The notes under the pieces: generated by a model
Database searches by the model: none
Told to the model about the DNA's origin: nothing
Seen by the model: the letters and a program-made list of their open reading frames with translations, nothing else
In this document: positions 25,695-36,984 of the stretch, in pieces
Layout of the letters: each line of letters opens with the position of its first letter
How positions within the stretch are numbered: the stretch's first letter is position 1
Origin: Thiomicrorhabdus sediminis
Lineage (GTDB): Bacteria; Pseudomonadota; Gammaproteobacteria; Thiomicrospirales; Thiomicrospiraceae
DNA length: 64,000 nucleotides
Assembly: GCF_005885815.1 (NCBI RefSeq)
Contig: NZ_CP040602.1
Coordinates: 1,441,630 to 1,505,629 of the forward strand
Reading direction: 5' to 3'
Made by a program: the position numbers and the translations under genes

Positions 25695-26129
25695 TTACCA
25701 CTCGTGCTTGCCGGCATAGTAAGAAAAAGCTGCCAAAAAAGCCTGTTCCTGAAACTTCTTCAAACCGGTTTCAGCAAAACTGATTGGCAAAGGATAGCGC
25801 TTCAAATTGGTCTTTTGTTCGGTCGCCGACATAAGCACGACCTTTAAATTTTCCGCCAGTTGAATAGCCGCTTCCAATTTAAATCCGTTAGCCCCACCGG
25901 CAAACTTGCCCTTTTTCATGCGTTGCTTAATTACCACCACATCGATCTGATAATCCTGCATTAGCTGGACAAAAGTCTTTTGGAAATACTGCAGATCTTT
26001 GGCACTGTCCGGATCGCTGCAATTGATGCGGCGCACTCGGCAATCCGGCAGATGAAACATCCCCATCTGCTCGCTTAATAGACTGATTACCGCATCATTT
26101 CCGGTTAGTTCAACACCACATATTTTCAT
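25695..26129 (-). CDS. DUF3010 family protein
   Basis: A 144-residue protein starting MKICGVELTGNDAVISLLS and containing VVVIKQRMKKGKFAGGANGFKLEAAIQ. This matches DUF3010, a small family of unknown function found mainly in gammaproteobacteria. The alternating strand pattern at the N-terminus (a strand, a Gly, then an acidic residue) resembles an RNase H-like fold, which is only a guess. It lies between dbpA and glnS on the same strand, 27 bases downstream of glnS, and may be cotranscribed with it. Confidence 0.75.
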   Translation of the reverse strand: MKICGVELTGNDAVISLLSEQMGMFHLPDCRVRRINCSDPDSAKDLQYFQKTFVQLMQDYQIDVVVIKQRMKKGKFAGGANGFKLEAAIQLAENLKVVLMSATEQKTNLKRYPLPISFAETGLKKFQEQAFLAAFSYYAGKHEW

Positions 26130-28452: not shown

Positions 28453-29610
28453 TTACTGGGCTTGCCTGATCTGTTGCTTAAGATGTTTGGCGGCCATTGC
28501 ATAGCCGCCATCAGCACTGTCGACAAAATGAATATGATTCGTGCCGCTTTGCTCGACCAGACAGGTGATAATCGCGGAATGGGTTTGATGACAACCATAA
28601 AACAGTACTCCGCGCTGATAAGCCTTCTCCAACCACTGCAATAACACATTCAACTGTTCCTTATTGGCAGACAAAACCGCACGATAGGCATCGTCGATTT
28701 TTTCAAAATCGCTGTTATCGATTAAATCCTGTTTGTAATCCCCCCAGTTATAACCGTTGTACTCGATACCAAAACGCATCCAAACAGAGCCTATTACATT
28801 TTCCAAGCGGATAACAATCGGCCTTAACCATTGCTGCCAAAGGCTTTTGCCAAAGCTGTGTCCGGCGGCCTCCATTTTCAGTTTCGGACCATTAAAACTC
28901 AAGTTCAAACCTTCAACCGATAACGGCTTGGCATTTTTTGCATCCAATAGCCGATCCATGGCTGTGGCCAACTTTCGATAAAGTCGCAATGTTTTTTGGG
29001 GGTCTTGATGGCGAGATTTGACAATTAAACTAAATGTCACCTCTTTTTGTGACGGTATCTCATTCCAACGACACTCAAAACCAGAAAAATCGACTTTAAC
29101 CGGAGTGTCTTGCGCCAATTCAAAATCGGCTTTGCTTTTAATCAATGCATCGGCCTCTTCCAAGCCGCCCCCCATAAAAAAGAACTGCAACAGGTTTTCG
29201 GTTCGGTAAAAACGGCTCACCAAGACATCATTGTTTAGCTGACTGCATGGCACAATACCAACACGCAACTGCAAACCACCGGTGTGTTCTGCAAGCTGCT
29301 GACAACCACGTAAAGCGGACTTGACCGTTTCGATCAATTCAGGAGGCACACAAAAGCTGGCGCCATCGCCACCAAATACATAAGGAATTTTTCTTGGCTT
29401 ACAGGCATTGACTACGGCGGCAATGGTACTGCCCCCAACCGCATTGATATCACGATATTTACCGGCATCAATCGCTTTGGTGGAATTGACCACATCGGTT
29501 ATTACCACAAACCAATCTTCGGGAATCGGTTGGTAATTATGGGTATCAAGAGTTTGTTGAAACGCTTGCAGCGCAGGAATTGTTTCCTCGAAGTTGGTGG
29601 CCTTTGACAT
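28453..29610 (-). CDS. DUF3095 protein with class III nucleotide cyclase-like catalytic features
   Basis: A 385-residue soluble protein of the DUF3095 family. The N-terminal half shows a class III nucleotidyl cyclase pattern: Asp39 in VVITDVVNSTKAI and Asp82 in VFGGDGASFCVPP are 43 residues apart, close to the spacing of the two metal-binding aspartates of adenylate/guanylate cyclases. LRVGIVPCSQL also resembles the cyclase core. Whether it makes a cyclic nucleotide, and which one, is not known. It ends 25 bases from the convergent secreted-protein gene and starts 36 bases after the stop of the MBL/GAF/HD-GYP gene on the same strand, so the two are very likely an operon that pairs a possible cyclase with a possible phosphodiesterase. 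Confidence 0.8.
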   Translation of the reverse strand: MSKATNFEETIPALQAFQQTLDTHNYQPIPEDWFVVITDVVNSTKAIDAGKYRDINAVGGSTIAAVVNACKPRKIPYVFGGDGASFCVPPELIETVKSALRGCQQLAEHTGGLQLRVGIVPCSQLNNDVLVSRFYRTENLLQFFFMGGGLEEADALIKSKADFELAQDTPVKVDFSGFECRWNEIPSQKEVTFSLIVKSRHQDPQKTLRLYRKLATAMDRLLDAKNAKPLSVEGLNLSFNGPKLKMEAAGHSFGKSLWQQWLRPIVIRLENVIGSVWMRFGIEYNGYNWGDYKQDLIDNSDFEKIDDAYRAVLSANKEQLNVLLQWLEKAYQRGVLFYGCHQTHSAIITCLVEQSGTNHIHFVDSADGGYAMAAKHLKQQIRQAQ

Positions 29611-29645
29611 AGTGGTCGATATTCCTTACAGCGTTTAATACATCA

Positions 29646-32081
29646 TTAATGAAACTGACTGCCGGTTTGAAGCGAATTGTCGATAGTCAGTTCGAAATCG
29701 GTGATTTGACTTTCACTCAAACGGTGGTTGTAGCGTTTATAGATCCCTTTTTCAAAGAAAAAACGCACCAATTGCCCATCGATTTCACCACGATTGACCA
29801 TATCACTTAAAATATGCGAAACCTGTTTAATGGTCATCGGTTTCTTATAAGGTCGAGCATTTGATGACAGGGCCTCATAAAGATCGGCAAGCACCATAAT
29901 CTCATCTTCTAGCGTCAGTTCCGCAACGGTTAAACCGCGCGGATAACCTTTACCGTTTAATTTTTCATGATGGTTCGCGGCAATATCGATAATACGGCCA
30001 TATTTCTCAGGAAACGGCAACGTCTTGAGCATATCCAACGATAAACGCGCATGATCCATTATTCGCTTGCGCTCCGCCTCATTCAAAGTACCGCGATTAA
30101 TGCATAAATTCATCAATTCATCATCATCGACCAGTGCGAATTTACTGTCGACTTTATCGCTATGAAGAAAATAATAGCGCTCAGCTATCGCTCGAATTCG
30201 CTGCGCATTCTCTTCCAGCAACGATTCTTCTCCGGAATTCATCTGCACTAAAAAGTCAAAATCCTCATCCAGTAAAGCGAGTTTAGCGGTTTGCTGTTTA
30301 CGAACCTCATCAATGCTGAACGGCTGTCCCGAGAGTTTTTCCATGGATTCAATCAGCACACTCTGCTTGGCTAATTGAAAACGTAAACCAATCAACTCGA
30401 TGCGATCAATATTTTTTTGCAACTTGGTCGCCTTATGCAACACAGCCTCCGGCGTGGCAATCTTACCGATATCATGGACTAAAGCGGCGATCTTGATTGT
30501 ATGCAAGATTTCGGCACTGTAACTCACATCACCATAAACGCTCTGGTCTTCATTAATCGCTTGGGAAATCAGTTGAGCCAATTCGGCGACCTGCATAATA
30601 TGCAAGCCGGTAAAGCTGCACTTTTCCTCAAAGGCGACAATGATGGCTGTGGCGAATGCCTCAAAAAGTTCTTCCATCTGCTGGACCAATATCGCATTGG
30701 ACAGGGATAGAGCTGCCTGGGAAGCCAGCGCCATGGCATTGGCCTGCTCTTCAACCGAAAAGGCGACAAAATCGCCATCCGTATCGATTTTATTAATTAA
30801 CTGTAAAACTCCTAATAACTCATTGTCTTGGGCCAATAAAGGCACGACTAACATGGAGTGAGAGCGATACCCGGTGGTTTGATCGAACTCACGCGTGCCG
30901 CTAAAATCGAATTCGGTATTACGGTAGACATCGTTAATCAACAAGGGGGCTTTATTCAGGGCACAAACCACCGCGACCATGCTTGTATTGGCTTTGCCGT
31001 CGCGATAAAGTGACAAATTGGGCCAATTCAACTCGCCAGCGGTATCTCTCAAATAAATACCCAATTCGTTATTGCGCACCACGCTAAACTCAAGCTCTTG
31101 CTTGTCTTTATTGAAATGGTATAGGGTACCGGCATCCGCTCCGGTAAATTTCATCGCTTCATCCAAAATCAAATCCAGCAGTTGATTGGGATTGTATTCG
31201 CCCGATAACGCTTGAGAGATTTTCAGCAATGACGCCAACTGCTGCTGCGAACTGTTATGCAGATGATTGGCGTTTTCGATTAACGCCGTCTGTTCTGTAA
31301 AAACTCTCACCACTTGATCAGAATCCAAAAAGCCGGCGATACGATAAGGCAAGCTACCTTTAAACAGCGCCTGAATTTCTTCTTTAATCTGTTTTTCGTA
31401 ACAAGGTTTCAAATGGAACAGATACACATCAATCGGTTTTTCGATCGCGGACAACTGCTGCTGCAATGTTTTTGGTGTCAGATGCCTACTGACCTCTGCC
31501 AAGCCGGACATATAACTCGGAAACGAAACCTCGATAAACAAACTGGTTAAATTTTCAGTAGTCGTGATTGCCTCGGTTAGGTCTTCCGATAAATAGGTGT
31601 CTGAAGACAAAATACAGGCTTTATTTTCATGGCGGATGATAAAGCCGCAAGCACCTTCGACATGATTGGTTGAAAAAGCCTCAAACTCAATATCCTGTAA
31701 ATAAAACGGCCGCTTCGTTTCAATTTCAATAAACTCAATACAGTTTTTATCATAAACAGGATGCTTGATATTCTGAAATGCCGGCCAAATGACATCATTG
31801 AACATATGCATTTTGACCGCTTGCAAGGTTTGCGATAAGCCATAAATTTTCAGTGGCTTGGAACGCTGCATAAAATAGGTTTCGACCATAAACGGTAAAT
31901 CGCGAATATGATCAAAGTGAGCATGAGTCAATAAAACGTGTTCAATATTGGCGCAATCGTCTCCGAGTGGCACCACAACATGGCCCGCATCAACCAAAAT
32001 ATGCTTGCCTAGCTTAAAACTACAACAATGTTCTGTCGAACTTGCGCTGCCATGAGCACCCAGAACCTCAATACCTAACAT
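29646..32081 (-). CDS. Metallo-beta-lactamase (class II PDE-like) - GAF - HD-GYP signalling protein
   Basis: An 811-residue protein from the ATG at 32081, which has AAGGG eight bases upstream; an upstream in-frame start is rejected. Residues 1-250 are a metallo-beta-lactamase fold with His53, His55, Asp57 and His58 in LLTHAHFDHIRDLPF, Asp161 in ILSSDTYL and His200 in SRHLTP, an order seen in class II cAMP phosphodiesterases. A GAF domain spans about 280-465 and ends near LQLINKIDTDGDFVAFS. An HD-GYP domain follows: LVHDIGKIATPE (His536-Asp537) and NHHEKLNGKGYPRGL (GYP at 712-714). HD and HHE are about 168 residues apart, some 100 more than usual, so an extra helical segment (about 555-665) interrupts the domain. 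Likely cytoplasmic, with two predicted hydrolase sites. Confidence 0.88.
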   Translation of the reverse strand: MLGIEVLGAHGSASSTEHCCSFKLGKHILVDAGHVVVPLGDDCANIEHVLLTHAHFDHIRDLPFMVETYFMQRSKPLKIYGLSQTLQAVKMHMFNDVIWPAFQNIKHPVYDKNCIEFIEIETKRPFYLQDIEFEAFSTNHVEGACGFIIRHENKACILSSDTYLSEDLTEAITTTENLTSLFIEVSFPSYMSGLAEVSRHLTPKTLQQQLSAIEKPIDVYLFHLKPCYEKQIKEEIQALFKGSLPYRIAGFLDSDQVVRVFTEQTALIENANHLHNSSQQQLASLLKISQALSGEYNPNQLLDLILDEAMKFTGADAGTLYHFNKDKQELEFSVVRNNELGIYLRDTAGELNWPNLSLYRDGKANTSMVAVVCALNKAPLLINDVYRNTEFDFSGTREFDQTTGYRSHSMLVVPLLAQDNELLGVLQLINKIDTDGDFVAFSVEEQANAMALASQAALSLSNAILVQQMEELFEAFATAIIVAFEEKCSFTGLHIMQVAELAQLISQAINEDQSVYGDVSYSAEILHTIKIAALVHDIGKIATPEAVLHKATKLQKNIDRIELIGLRFQLAKQSVLIESMEKLSGQPFSIDEVRKQQTAKLALLDEDFDFLVQMNSGEESLLEENAQRIRAIAERYYFLHSDKVDSKFALVDDDELMNLCINRGTLNEAERKRIMDHARLSLDMLKTLPFPEKYGRIIDIAANHHEKLNGKGYPRGLTVAELTLEDEIMVLADLYEALSSNARPYKKPMTIKQVSHILSDMVNRGEIDGQLVRFFFEKGIYKRYNHRLSESQITDFELTIDNSLQTGSQFH

Positions 32082-36273: not shown

Positions 36274-36984
36274 ATGTATTTAAATGATTTTCACCGCATT
36301 GAAAACAACAATGTTTTCATTACACCACAACAAGCCAGCCGTTTTGCCAAAGAAATCTCCGATGACTTCAACCCTTTGCACAACGCGGACAACAAACGTT
36401 TTTGTGTACCTGGCGATTTATTATTCGCCTTGGTTCTGGCTAAAAACGGTTTATCGCAAAAAATGACATTTCAGTACACCGGCATGGTGGGTAAAGAAGC
36501 CGCGCTGCGTTTTCCTGATACCGATGAGTCACAATTCACTATTACTGACACCAACGACAAAAACTACCTCAATGTTGAACGTGGCGGCGAAAACATTAAA
36601 GAGCTGAATATCATCGAAGCTTTTTCAAAGGCTTATGTTGCGTTTTCCGGTCTCAGTTTTCCACATATCCTGGTACCATTAATGCAGCAGCATAATGCCA
36701 TGATCAACCCGGAAAGGCCGATGGTGATCTATGAGAGCATGGCTTTTGATTTACAGCAACTAGACATGACTAAACCTGAACTCAAGCTTAACGACAGCCA
36801 GCTTGAGGTCAACGGTAAACGTGGCCAAGTAACAATGAAGTTTGATATTCTTGATCAAGGCCAGCTTATTGGAACCGGACTAAAAACCATGGTTTTGGGC
36901 GGCCTAAGGGAGTATGACCAAGATGCCATTGATAATCTGATCGCGGTCTATGAAAGCGCCAAGTCAGACTATAAAGCGGCTTAG
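36274..36984 (+). CDS. DUF3581 family protein
   Basis: A 236-residue soluble protein with the conserved opening pattern ITPQQASRFAKEISDDFNPLHN and CVPGDLLFALVLAKNGLSQKM, typical of the DUF3581 family of gammaproteobacteria. The DFNPLH...FCVPGDLLFALVL region looks like the active-site part of MaoC/hot-dog hydratases (D...NP.H), so an acyl-thioester-related fold is possible; this is inference. No signal peptide or membrane segment. It follows the GGDEF gene by 59 bases. Confidence 0.8.
   Translation: MYLNDFHRIENNNVFITPQQASRFAKEISDDFNPLHNADNKRFCVPGDLLFALVLAKNGLSQKMTFQYTGMVGKEAALRFPDTDESQFTITDTNDKNYLNVERGGENIKELNIIEAFSKAYVAFSGLSFPHILVPLMQQHNAMINPERPMVIYESMAFDLQQLDMTKPELKLNDSQLEVNGKRGQVTMKFDILDQGQLIGTGLKTMVLGGLREYDQDAIDNLIAVYESAKSDYKAA

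Follow-up and report, generated by a model that had tools for sequence, protein, structure and literature searches.

A DUF3095 protein with a predicted tandem class III adenylyl-cyclase fold beside an MBL-GAF-HD-GYP protein in Thiomicrorhabdus sediminis: a possible cyclic-nucleotide partnership

The gene pair and the P2 protein

We analysed a 64,000-nucleotide stretch of the 2.37 Mb genome of Thiomicrorhabdus sediminis (contig NZ_CP040602.1, positions 1,441,630 to 1,505,629; hereafter the window, to which the coordinates refer) and, in it, a pair of genes on the minus strand. The first gene (29646-32081, minus strand) encodes an 811-residue protein with MBL, GAF and HD-GYP domains, here called P2, and the second (28453-29610, minus strand) a 385-residue DUF3095 protein for which a tandem class III adenylyl-cyclase fold is predicted. 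A preliminary description of this DNA had placed both open reading frames at these minus-strand coordinates, as we also found, with a spacing of 36 bases; the intergenic gap is of 35 bases (29611-29645). A possible ribosome-binding AAGGA lies 5′ of the DUF3095 start, and the two genes make up an apparent operon.

P2 gave matches above the Pfam cut-offs to Lactamase_B_2, PDEase_II, GAF and HD (HD_5), in agreement with the preliminary description, which had assigned to it the HxHxDH, Asp and His set of class II cyclic-nucleotide phosphodiesterases, a GAF domain and an HD-GYP domain. The MBL domain (31257-32081, minus strand) carries the metal set H53-x-H55-x-D57-H58, H140, D161 and H223 and an HxFNDxIWP stretch, the GAF domain spans residues 297-462 (30696-31193, minus strand) and the HD-GYP domain, which has an insert after HDxGK, about residues 474-790 (29712-30662, minus strand). 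Both the MBL metal set and the HD-GYP set (H494, H536-D537, K540, H677, H704-H705 and G712-Y713-P714) were invariant in 22 P2 sequences, with at most two gaps. The PDEase_II match (39.1 bits, cut-off 23.7) covers a partial stretch, residues 45-119, and the HD_5 match reaches 98.5 bits. A PDEase_II match together with the HxHxDH, His, Asp and His set, by which we recognised class II enzymes, was found within residues 1-275, and HD, distal His residues and GYP motif, by which we recognised HD-GYP proteins, at the C-terminus.

By sequence, the solved structure closest to the MBL domain was that of yeast PDE1, a cyclic-nucleotide phosphodiesterase (E 3e-7, with HxFNDxIWP within the aligned stretch), followed by Integrator subunit 11, ribonucleases and tRNase Z (E 0.005 to 0.05). 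The solved relatives on the GAF side were 1ykd (adenylate cyclase), which we take to be the GAF tandem of CyaB2, and PDE5, and those on the HD side a 3′3′-cGAMP phosphodiesterase and a cyclic di-GMP (c-di-GMP) phosphodiesterase; the structures related to the HD-GYP part include 4mcw (metal-dependent phosphohydrolase), 5z7c and 4r8z. A model of the MBL domain built from two sequences was poor (pLDDT, i.e. predicted local distance difference test, 61.8) and was set aside. The MBL domain is class II cyclic-nucleotide phosphodiesterase-like, and cyclic-nucleotide binding by the GAF domain and c-di-GMP hydrolysis by the HD-GYP domain are plausible.

The DUF3095 family, its predicted fold and its putative active site

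The window protein matches Pfam DUF3095 (PF11294; presumably IPR021445 in InterPro) with 389 bits (cut-off 22.2) over 370 residues, almost the whole family model, and this was its only Pfam match at E up to 1; NCBIfam gave no match at E 0.001, and these searches recognised no other domain in the protein. Full-text literature searches under the names DUF3095 and PF11294 brought up no paper. At least 579 relatives were confirmed in a scan with one genome per species, and the best 80 of them, i.e. those closest to the window sequence, were considered as loci; this sample is uneven, because it consists of the best matches to the window sequence and many loci are truncated by contig ends. By their titles, the 80 loci come from Pseudomonadota, Cyanobacteria, Chloroflexota, Planctomycetota, Bacteroidota-type groups, Myxococcota and Bdellovibrionota, the most similar proteins among the named genomes being those of Thiomicrorhabdus, Hydrogenovibrio and Thiomicrospira. 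In a sample of genomes from the phylum, DUF3095 was present in 53 of 398 genomes (the window genome included). It was also found in 249 plasmid records (142 Rhizobium, 84 Sinorhizobium), large rhizobial plasmids (e.g. L294) commonly carrying it, and in the 20 plasmid records listed the gene name, where given, is only 'DUF3095 domain-containing protein'. We also considered a defence system and rejected it: PADLOC gave no match for DUF3095, P2 had weak Cas3-HD matches alone and phage records gave no match.

Conservation was evaluated on two alignments, in which, as in the model below, residues are numbered without the initiator Met (one has to be added for the full protein). Alignment A2 contains 71 sequences, the window protein and 70 of the 80 loci, the ten omitted loci being those with open reading frames outside 360-430 residues, unclustered ones or L124; alignment A1 has 25 rows, with more alphaproteobacterial-type members. 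There are 27 invariant columns in A2, which include D38, S42, N55, N67, F78-G-G-D81-G-A83, R115, G146, K157, C179, W181, D300, D305, G338, T348-C349, H360, D363, G367-G368 and A372. D38, D81, R115 and D363 are kept also in A1, in which W181, D305, G367 and G368 vary. The two aspartates that had been noticed 43 residues apart are D39 and D82 of the full protein, and both are indeed invariant (71/71 in A2, 25/25 in A1).

AlphaFold2, run on the 71-sequence alignment, gave a model with a mean pLDDT of 96.0 and a pTM (predicted template-modelling score) of 0.93. In our reading of its secondary structure, residues 33-158 follow the order beta1-alpha-alpha-beta2-beta3-alpha3-beta4-beta5-beta6-alpha4, and residues 190-383 a like order plus a helical insert. 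The top two Foldseek matches were the two-domain cores of AC9 (E 6e-5) and of human soluble AC (E 4e-4); later ones include single-domain class III cyclases, among them Anabaena uridylate cyclase, and weaker ones Csm1 and GTP cyclohydrolase III. With VIA-align, the first entry was PaAClp (6yii; Z 13.4, 270 residues, 4.2 Å), tied within 1 with AC9 and AC8. Entries 1-37 (Z 13.4-9.9) were PaAClp, AC5, AC8, AC9 and soluble AC, the next row having a Z of 6.8, and these 37 alignments span about residues 5 to 380 of DUF3095. The (pseudo-)dimer of catalytic-domain folds by which class III is defined is therefore present in the predicted model and, because of these matches to two-domain adenylyl cyclases, the assignment of a tandem two-domain (C1-C2-like) class III adenylyl-cyclase fold is strong for a prediction. 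The class III cyclase-like character first proposed for DUF3095 is in this way borne out as regards the fold, which is predicted to be tandem and C1-C2-like instead of a single domain; the transition-state residues seem unconserved.

We placed the class III positions (the metal aspartates, the base-specifying Lys/Asp and the transition-state Asn/Arg) on the model by our own secondary-structure alignment, and the assignments of this paragraph are to be read as inferred. In the N-terminal, C1-like half (29044-29535, minus strand), D38 follows beta1 and D81 lies in the beta2-beta3 hairpin, i.e. in the places of the two class III metal aspartates, each in 71/71 sequences, and R115 lies on beta4 (71/71). 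The C-terminal, C2-like half with the helical insert (28453-29043, minus strand) carries K303, D305, T348-C349, H360, D363, G367-G368 and K377; K303, on beta2 (70/71), and D363, at the end of beta6 (71/71), are near the elements of the base-specifying Lys/Asp. The preliminary description had let the cyclase reading depend on the second metal-binding residue, for which D81 is the putative counterpart, and on the base-specifying residues, for which K303 and D363 are candidates. At the start of helix alpha4, the place of the transition-state Asn/Arg, DUF3095 has A370 (in the 71 sequences Ala 60, Thr 7, Ser 2, two others) and the variable K374 (Lys 38, Arg 15, rest other); K377, one turn after K374, is Lys in 70/71 and may be a shifted substitute. 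The pocket for metal and nucleotide thus seems to be retained, whereas the classical transition-state pair seems to be lost, and DUF3095 is at most a putative cyclase.

The apparent lack of the canonical Asn/Arg weighs against reading DUF3095 as a cyclase, and so do the profile comparisons. The class III profile PF00211 did not recognise DUF3095: it is missing from the best 25 of the 36 families that the 71 members matched at E up to 1. When a class III profile built from relatives was compared with DUF3095 by hhalign, the probabilities were at most 1.1% (not significant), the insignificant alignment having the same starting register and bringing GGD onto the GD region. An internal duplication was sought by sequence and rejected, the N-half and C-half giving 0.3% with hhalign; the domain duplication is proposed from the predicted structure.

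Two other readings of the family bear on these data. According to the main rival, which we hold to be somewhat unlikely, DUF3095 is a pseudo-cyclase whose composite pocket takes up ATP or a cyclic nucleotide; it would make no messenger and would act as sensor or regulator of P2 and of other partners. The apparent loss of the transition-state Asn/Arg argues for it, as does the title of the nearest solved fold, PaAClp ('Class III adenylyl cyclase-like ATP-binding protein'); the two aspartates and 25 other positions invariant in 71 sequences are more than a plain binding protein needs. The other reading, which we consider quite improbable, is a different metal-dependent nucleotide chemistry (e.g. 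pyrophosphohydrolysis or dinucleotide synthesis) carried out through Cys179, Cys349, His360 and Asp363, with a link to P2 through c-di-GMP and not through cyclic AMP (cAMP). It is suggested by the unusual invariant Thr348-Cys349, His360 and Cys179, by Csm1 and GTP cyclohydrolase III, which Foldseek matched weakly, by the FGGDGA motif, which resembles GGDEF, and by the GGDEF protein encoded divergently to P2 in the window, but the structural matches are dominated by two-domain adenylyl cyclases and the alternative partner of P2, described below, is a class III cyclase.

Co-occurrence, adjacency and the alternative partner of P2

In the family of T. sediminis (62 genomes), P2-type genes were present in 22/22 genomes with DUF3095 and in 9/40 without it (Fisher 1e-9), and in 21/21 versus 7/29 when the comparison was restricted to genomes with a completeness of 90% or more and a contamination of 5% or less. 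We considered as P2-type both a fused and a split form, pooled after seeing the data; interrupted copies (G018, G030) were counted too, as was a decayed fragment (G020), and among the split forms only the GAF-HD-GYP part was seen in G463, and the parts lie on separate contigs in G034. With the fused form only, the counts were 17/22 versus 5/40 (Fisher 5e-7). In the split form a GAF-HD-GYP gene stands beside a divergently transcribed class II phosphodiesterase-like MBL gene, an arrangement seen in L223, L224 and the relatives G033, G455, G457, G458, G460, G461, G462 and G007.

These counts were then evaluated on an rpoB tree of 54 genomes (one gene, quick method, 33/51 inner branches starred); of the eight genomes outside it, seven gave no match and one (G032) a short piece. 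DUF3095 changed at least 15 times on this tree and P2 at least 10 times. There were 8 independent pairs with a difference in P2, and in 6.5 of them (average) DUF3095 differed in the same direction, in 0 in the opposite one (median p 0.016); for the 10 independent pairs with a difference in DUF3095, the values for P2 were 5.8 and 0 (median p 0.031). The tree-aware tests thus support the co-occurrence of DUF3095 and P2 modestly.

As regards adjacency, DUF3095 was present in 11 of the 32 genomes of the genus and lay directly downstream of P2 in five of these (the window genome, G003, G019, G026 and G027). The two genes overlap by 4 bases in G003 and G027, if the first possible start is taken, and are 12 bases apart in G019 and G026; by the open reading frame lists, G019 and G026 are the only ones whose flanking genes do not differ. 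Two groupings, window-G027 and G019-G026, appear in both the DUF3095 tree (16 rows) and the P2 tree, the grouping with G003 does not, and co-divergence is not shown because the 16-row tree is poorly resolved. In G018 both DUF3095 (C1:2102336-2103447) and P2 (C1:2378535-2381008) are interrupted though far apart, which hints at joint decay; G030, with P2 in two frames and an intact DUF3095, does not agree with this.

Beyond the genus there was little sign of a standing neighbour. P2 was beside DUF3095 at 1/80 loci (L046, apparently the G027 locus); within the 80 loci the P2 profile gave one full-length match (L046) and one weak match (L103), and the class III cyclase profile one match (L072). 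A general DUF3095 operon was rejected, with no constant neighbour across the 80 loci. When genes within 5 positions of DUF3095 were clustered, the most frequent was an ABC-transporter ATPase, at 9 loci and in scattered positions; a glutamate-cysteine ligase-like family was directly downstream at 7 loci (example L064), and the other clusters had at most 6 loci. There were 67 close same-strand neighbours, at 51/79 loci, and of the 62 that were scanned at most 2 had any one Pfam family in common; the five remaining ones were the L046 P2, one L063 downstream gene, the L088 DUF3095 fragment and two L124 genes. DUF3095 is two genes away from a cyclase on one Rhizobium plasmid, and on a Phyllobacterium plasmid no cyclase is annotated within 5 kb of it.

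Several of these results weigh against a general pairing. Adjacency was found in 5/62 family genomes, all of one genus, and at one of the 80 loci; with the fused P2 only, the tree tests gave a median p of 0.06; and in the phylum sample P2-like genes (loosely defined, E 1e-25) were present in 21/52 genomes with DUF3095 and in 134/345 others, i.e. with no association, the own genome being left out. The self-contained switch proposed at first is thus partly supported, a general two-gene system is not, and the co-occurrence of DUF3095 with MBL-GAF-HD-GYP genes, by which the preliminary description had suggested to check it, is found in the family and not in the phylum sample. A second family, f58, gave an uninformative test because the MBL gene is nearly universal in it (64/74 genomes matched by the class II-like MBL profile at E 1e-10); cyclic-mononucleotide-binding proteins are present in 62/62 family genomes and are therefore uninformative too.

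These data could mean that adjacency and co-occurrence are incidental, DUF3095 and P2 being accessory genes kept by species of similar lifestyle and having no shared pathway. The few adjacent cases in one genus, the absence of association in the phylum sample and of an informative signal in the second family, and the small number of independent events (8 to 10 pairs) are what would be expected in that case. We regard it as rather unlikely, given the 22/22 versus 9/40 counts, the lack of opposite pairs in the tree test under the pooled P2 definition, the closely spaced genes in several different flanking contexts and the interruption of both genes in G018.

P2 has also another neighbour. We searched for class III cyclases in 60 of the 62 family genomes (G007 and G029 were outside the search and are excluded from the cyclase-related counts). 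In 8/60 genomes (G008, G021, G036, G456, G472, G473, G474 and, with a second P2 copy, G027), a CHASE2-class III adenylate cyclase lies directly upstream of P2, on the same strand and with a gap of 9 to 44 bases, CHASE2 being shown by Pfam for G008. G027 has two P2 genes, one beside the class III cyclase and the other beside DUF3095. At locus L218 (10651-13264), genes for a FecR-domain and a TPR/SlipAM protein precede the CHASE2-cyclase/P2 pair on the same strand, so that a larger operon is possible there. The simplest view of P2 is that of a partner which degrades and integrates the signal of a class III adenylate cyclase.

Within the genus, a class III cyclase was absent from 9/10 tested genomes with DUF3095, the tenth being G027. 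The 13 tested genomes with P2 had DUF3095 only in 9 cases, the cyclase only in 3 (among them G020, whose P2 is a decayed fragment) and both in 1 (G027; Fisher 0.014). G014 is grouped with G008 (support 88), and G030 with G021 (99), in the P2 tree, and the genomes within each pair differ in partner. Over the family, DUF3095 or a class III cyclase was present in 29/30 genomes with P2 versus 10/30 without it (tree-aware median p 0.03). No class I cyclase was found in the 62 family genomes, and the window genome gave no PF00211 (class III) match; class IV and rarer cyclases were not searched for. The functional link between DUF3095 and P2 is supported because the alternative neighbour of P2 is a class III adenylate cyclase and because no family genome was found to have DUF3095 without a P2-type gene.

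Replacement of the cyclase is less regular outside the genus. In other genera of the family, 9/11 genomes with DUF3095 also have a class III cyclase, so that DUF3095 replaces it in some cases at most, and the presence of the cyclase is unrelated to that of DUF3095 when all family genomes are counted (10/21 versus 18/39; Fisher p 1.0). For a mutual exclusion of DUF3095 and cyclase among genomes with P2, the tree offers 5 independent pairs, too few for a test (on average 3.3 opposite and 0 same; median p 0.25). All three points weaken the case for replacement. The pseudo-cyclase rival gains from the 9/11 genomes and from the absence of a fixed DUF3095 partner across phyla, but it would leave P2 without a known substrate source in the 9 tested genus genomes with DUF3095 and without a class III cyclase.

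Around the pair, the window encodes a MHYT-PAS-GGDEF diguanylate cyclase-type protein divergent to P2 (32388-34106, plus strand) and a second GGDEF protein near P2 (35060-36214, plus strand), together with two conserved proteins of unknown function, DUF3010 (25695-26129, minus strand) and DUF3581 (36274-36984, plus strand).

Interpretation and comparison with known systems

We slightly favour the reading in which DUF3095 is the cyclic-nucleotide partner of P2 in place of an adenylate cyclase, with about even weight on a catalytic protein and on a binding-only pseudo-cyclase. DUF3095 would be a single-chain class III-like cyclase fold, with a C1-like half (which carries the putative metal-binding aspartates) followed by a C2-like half and no sensor domain, and would act with P2 in one cyclic-nucleotide circuit. 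At home, P2 would be the off-switch of the CHASE2-class III adenylate cyclase: its MBL domain would cleave the cyclic nucleotide, its GAF domain would sense it and its HD-GYP domain would link the signal to c-di-GMP. In the window genome and its sisters, DUF3095 would replace the adenylate cyclase beside P2, and it probably makes, or at least binds, the nucleotide on which P2 acts. The analysis shows the gene layout, the domains, the conserved residues, the predicted fold, the co-occurrence and the alternative partner of P2; we infer from them ATP/cAMP as ligand, catalysis by DUF3095 instead of mere nucleotide binding (about evenly balanced) and a cross-talk through GAF and HD-GYP.

A bolder form of this reading, which we put forward as doubtful, is that DUF3095 proteins are unrecognised, phylum-spanning single-chain (C1-C2) nucleotidyl cyclases with a non-canonical transition state, one of which displaced the CHASE2 cyclase beside a P2 hub of cyclic-mononucleotide and c-di-GMP signals in Thiomicrorhabdus relatives. 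In any case, the data offer a specific hypothesis for DUF3095, namely that a protein of tandem adenylyl-cyclase fold works together with a cyclic-nucleotide phosphodiesterase, and they point to individual genomes where it may substitute for a genuine adenylate cyclase. Should DUF3095 be active, a widespread class of cyclic-nucleotide producers has escaped notice in genomes counted as having no adenylate cyclase; should it bind only, it would be a widespread nucleotide sensor derived from a cyclase.

Among known proteins, PaAClp of Pseudomonas aeruginosa has a tandem class III-like fold like that of DUF3095 and is its best structural match, although sequence searches with DUF3095 do not find it. 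PaAClp reportedly has a swapped C2-C1 order and no cyclase activity, its inactivity being the chief warning against our reading; in DUF3095, in contrast, the putative metal-site aspartates are in the first half (C1-C2 order). The mammalian cyclases AC5, AC8, AC9 and soluble AC have the C1-C2 pseudo-heterodimer fold over almost the whole DUF3095 chain (Z 9.9-13.2), at 8-12% identity, whereas DUF3095 has a helical insert and seems to lack the transition-state Asn/Arg. To our knowledge, the conserved Cys and His residues of DUF3095 are outside the class III motif set. As regards P2, the class II phosphodiesterases (yeast PDE1, Pfam PDEase_II) have the metal motif and HxFNDxIWP in common with its MBL domain, which in P2 is fused to GAF and HD-GYP, relatives having also the split form. 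Finally, the CHASE2-class III cyclase/P2 pair of the Thiomicrorhabdus-group relatives has the same P2 architecture and a cyclase adjoining P2 on the same strand; there the cyclase carries a CHASE2 domain and is upstream of P2, whereas DUF3095 consists of its one recognised domain and is downstream.

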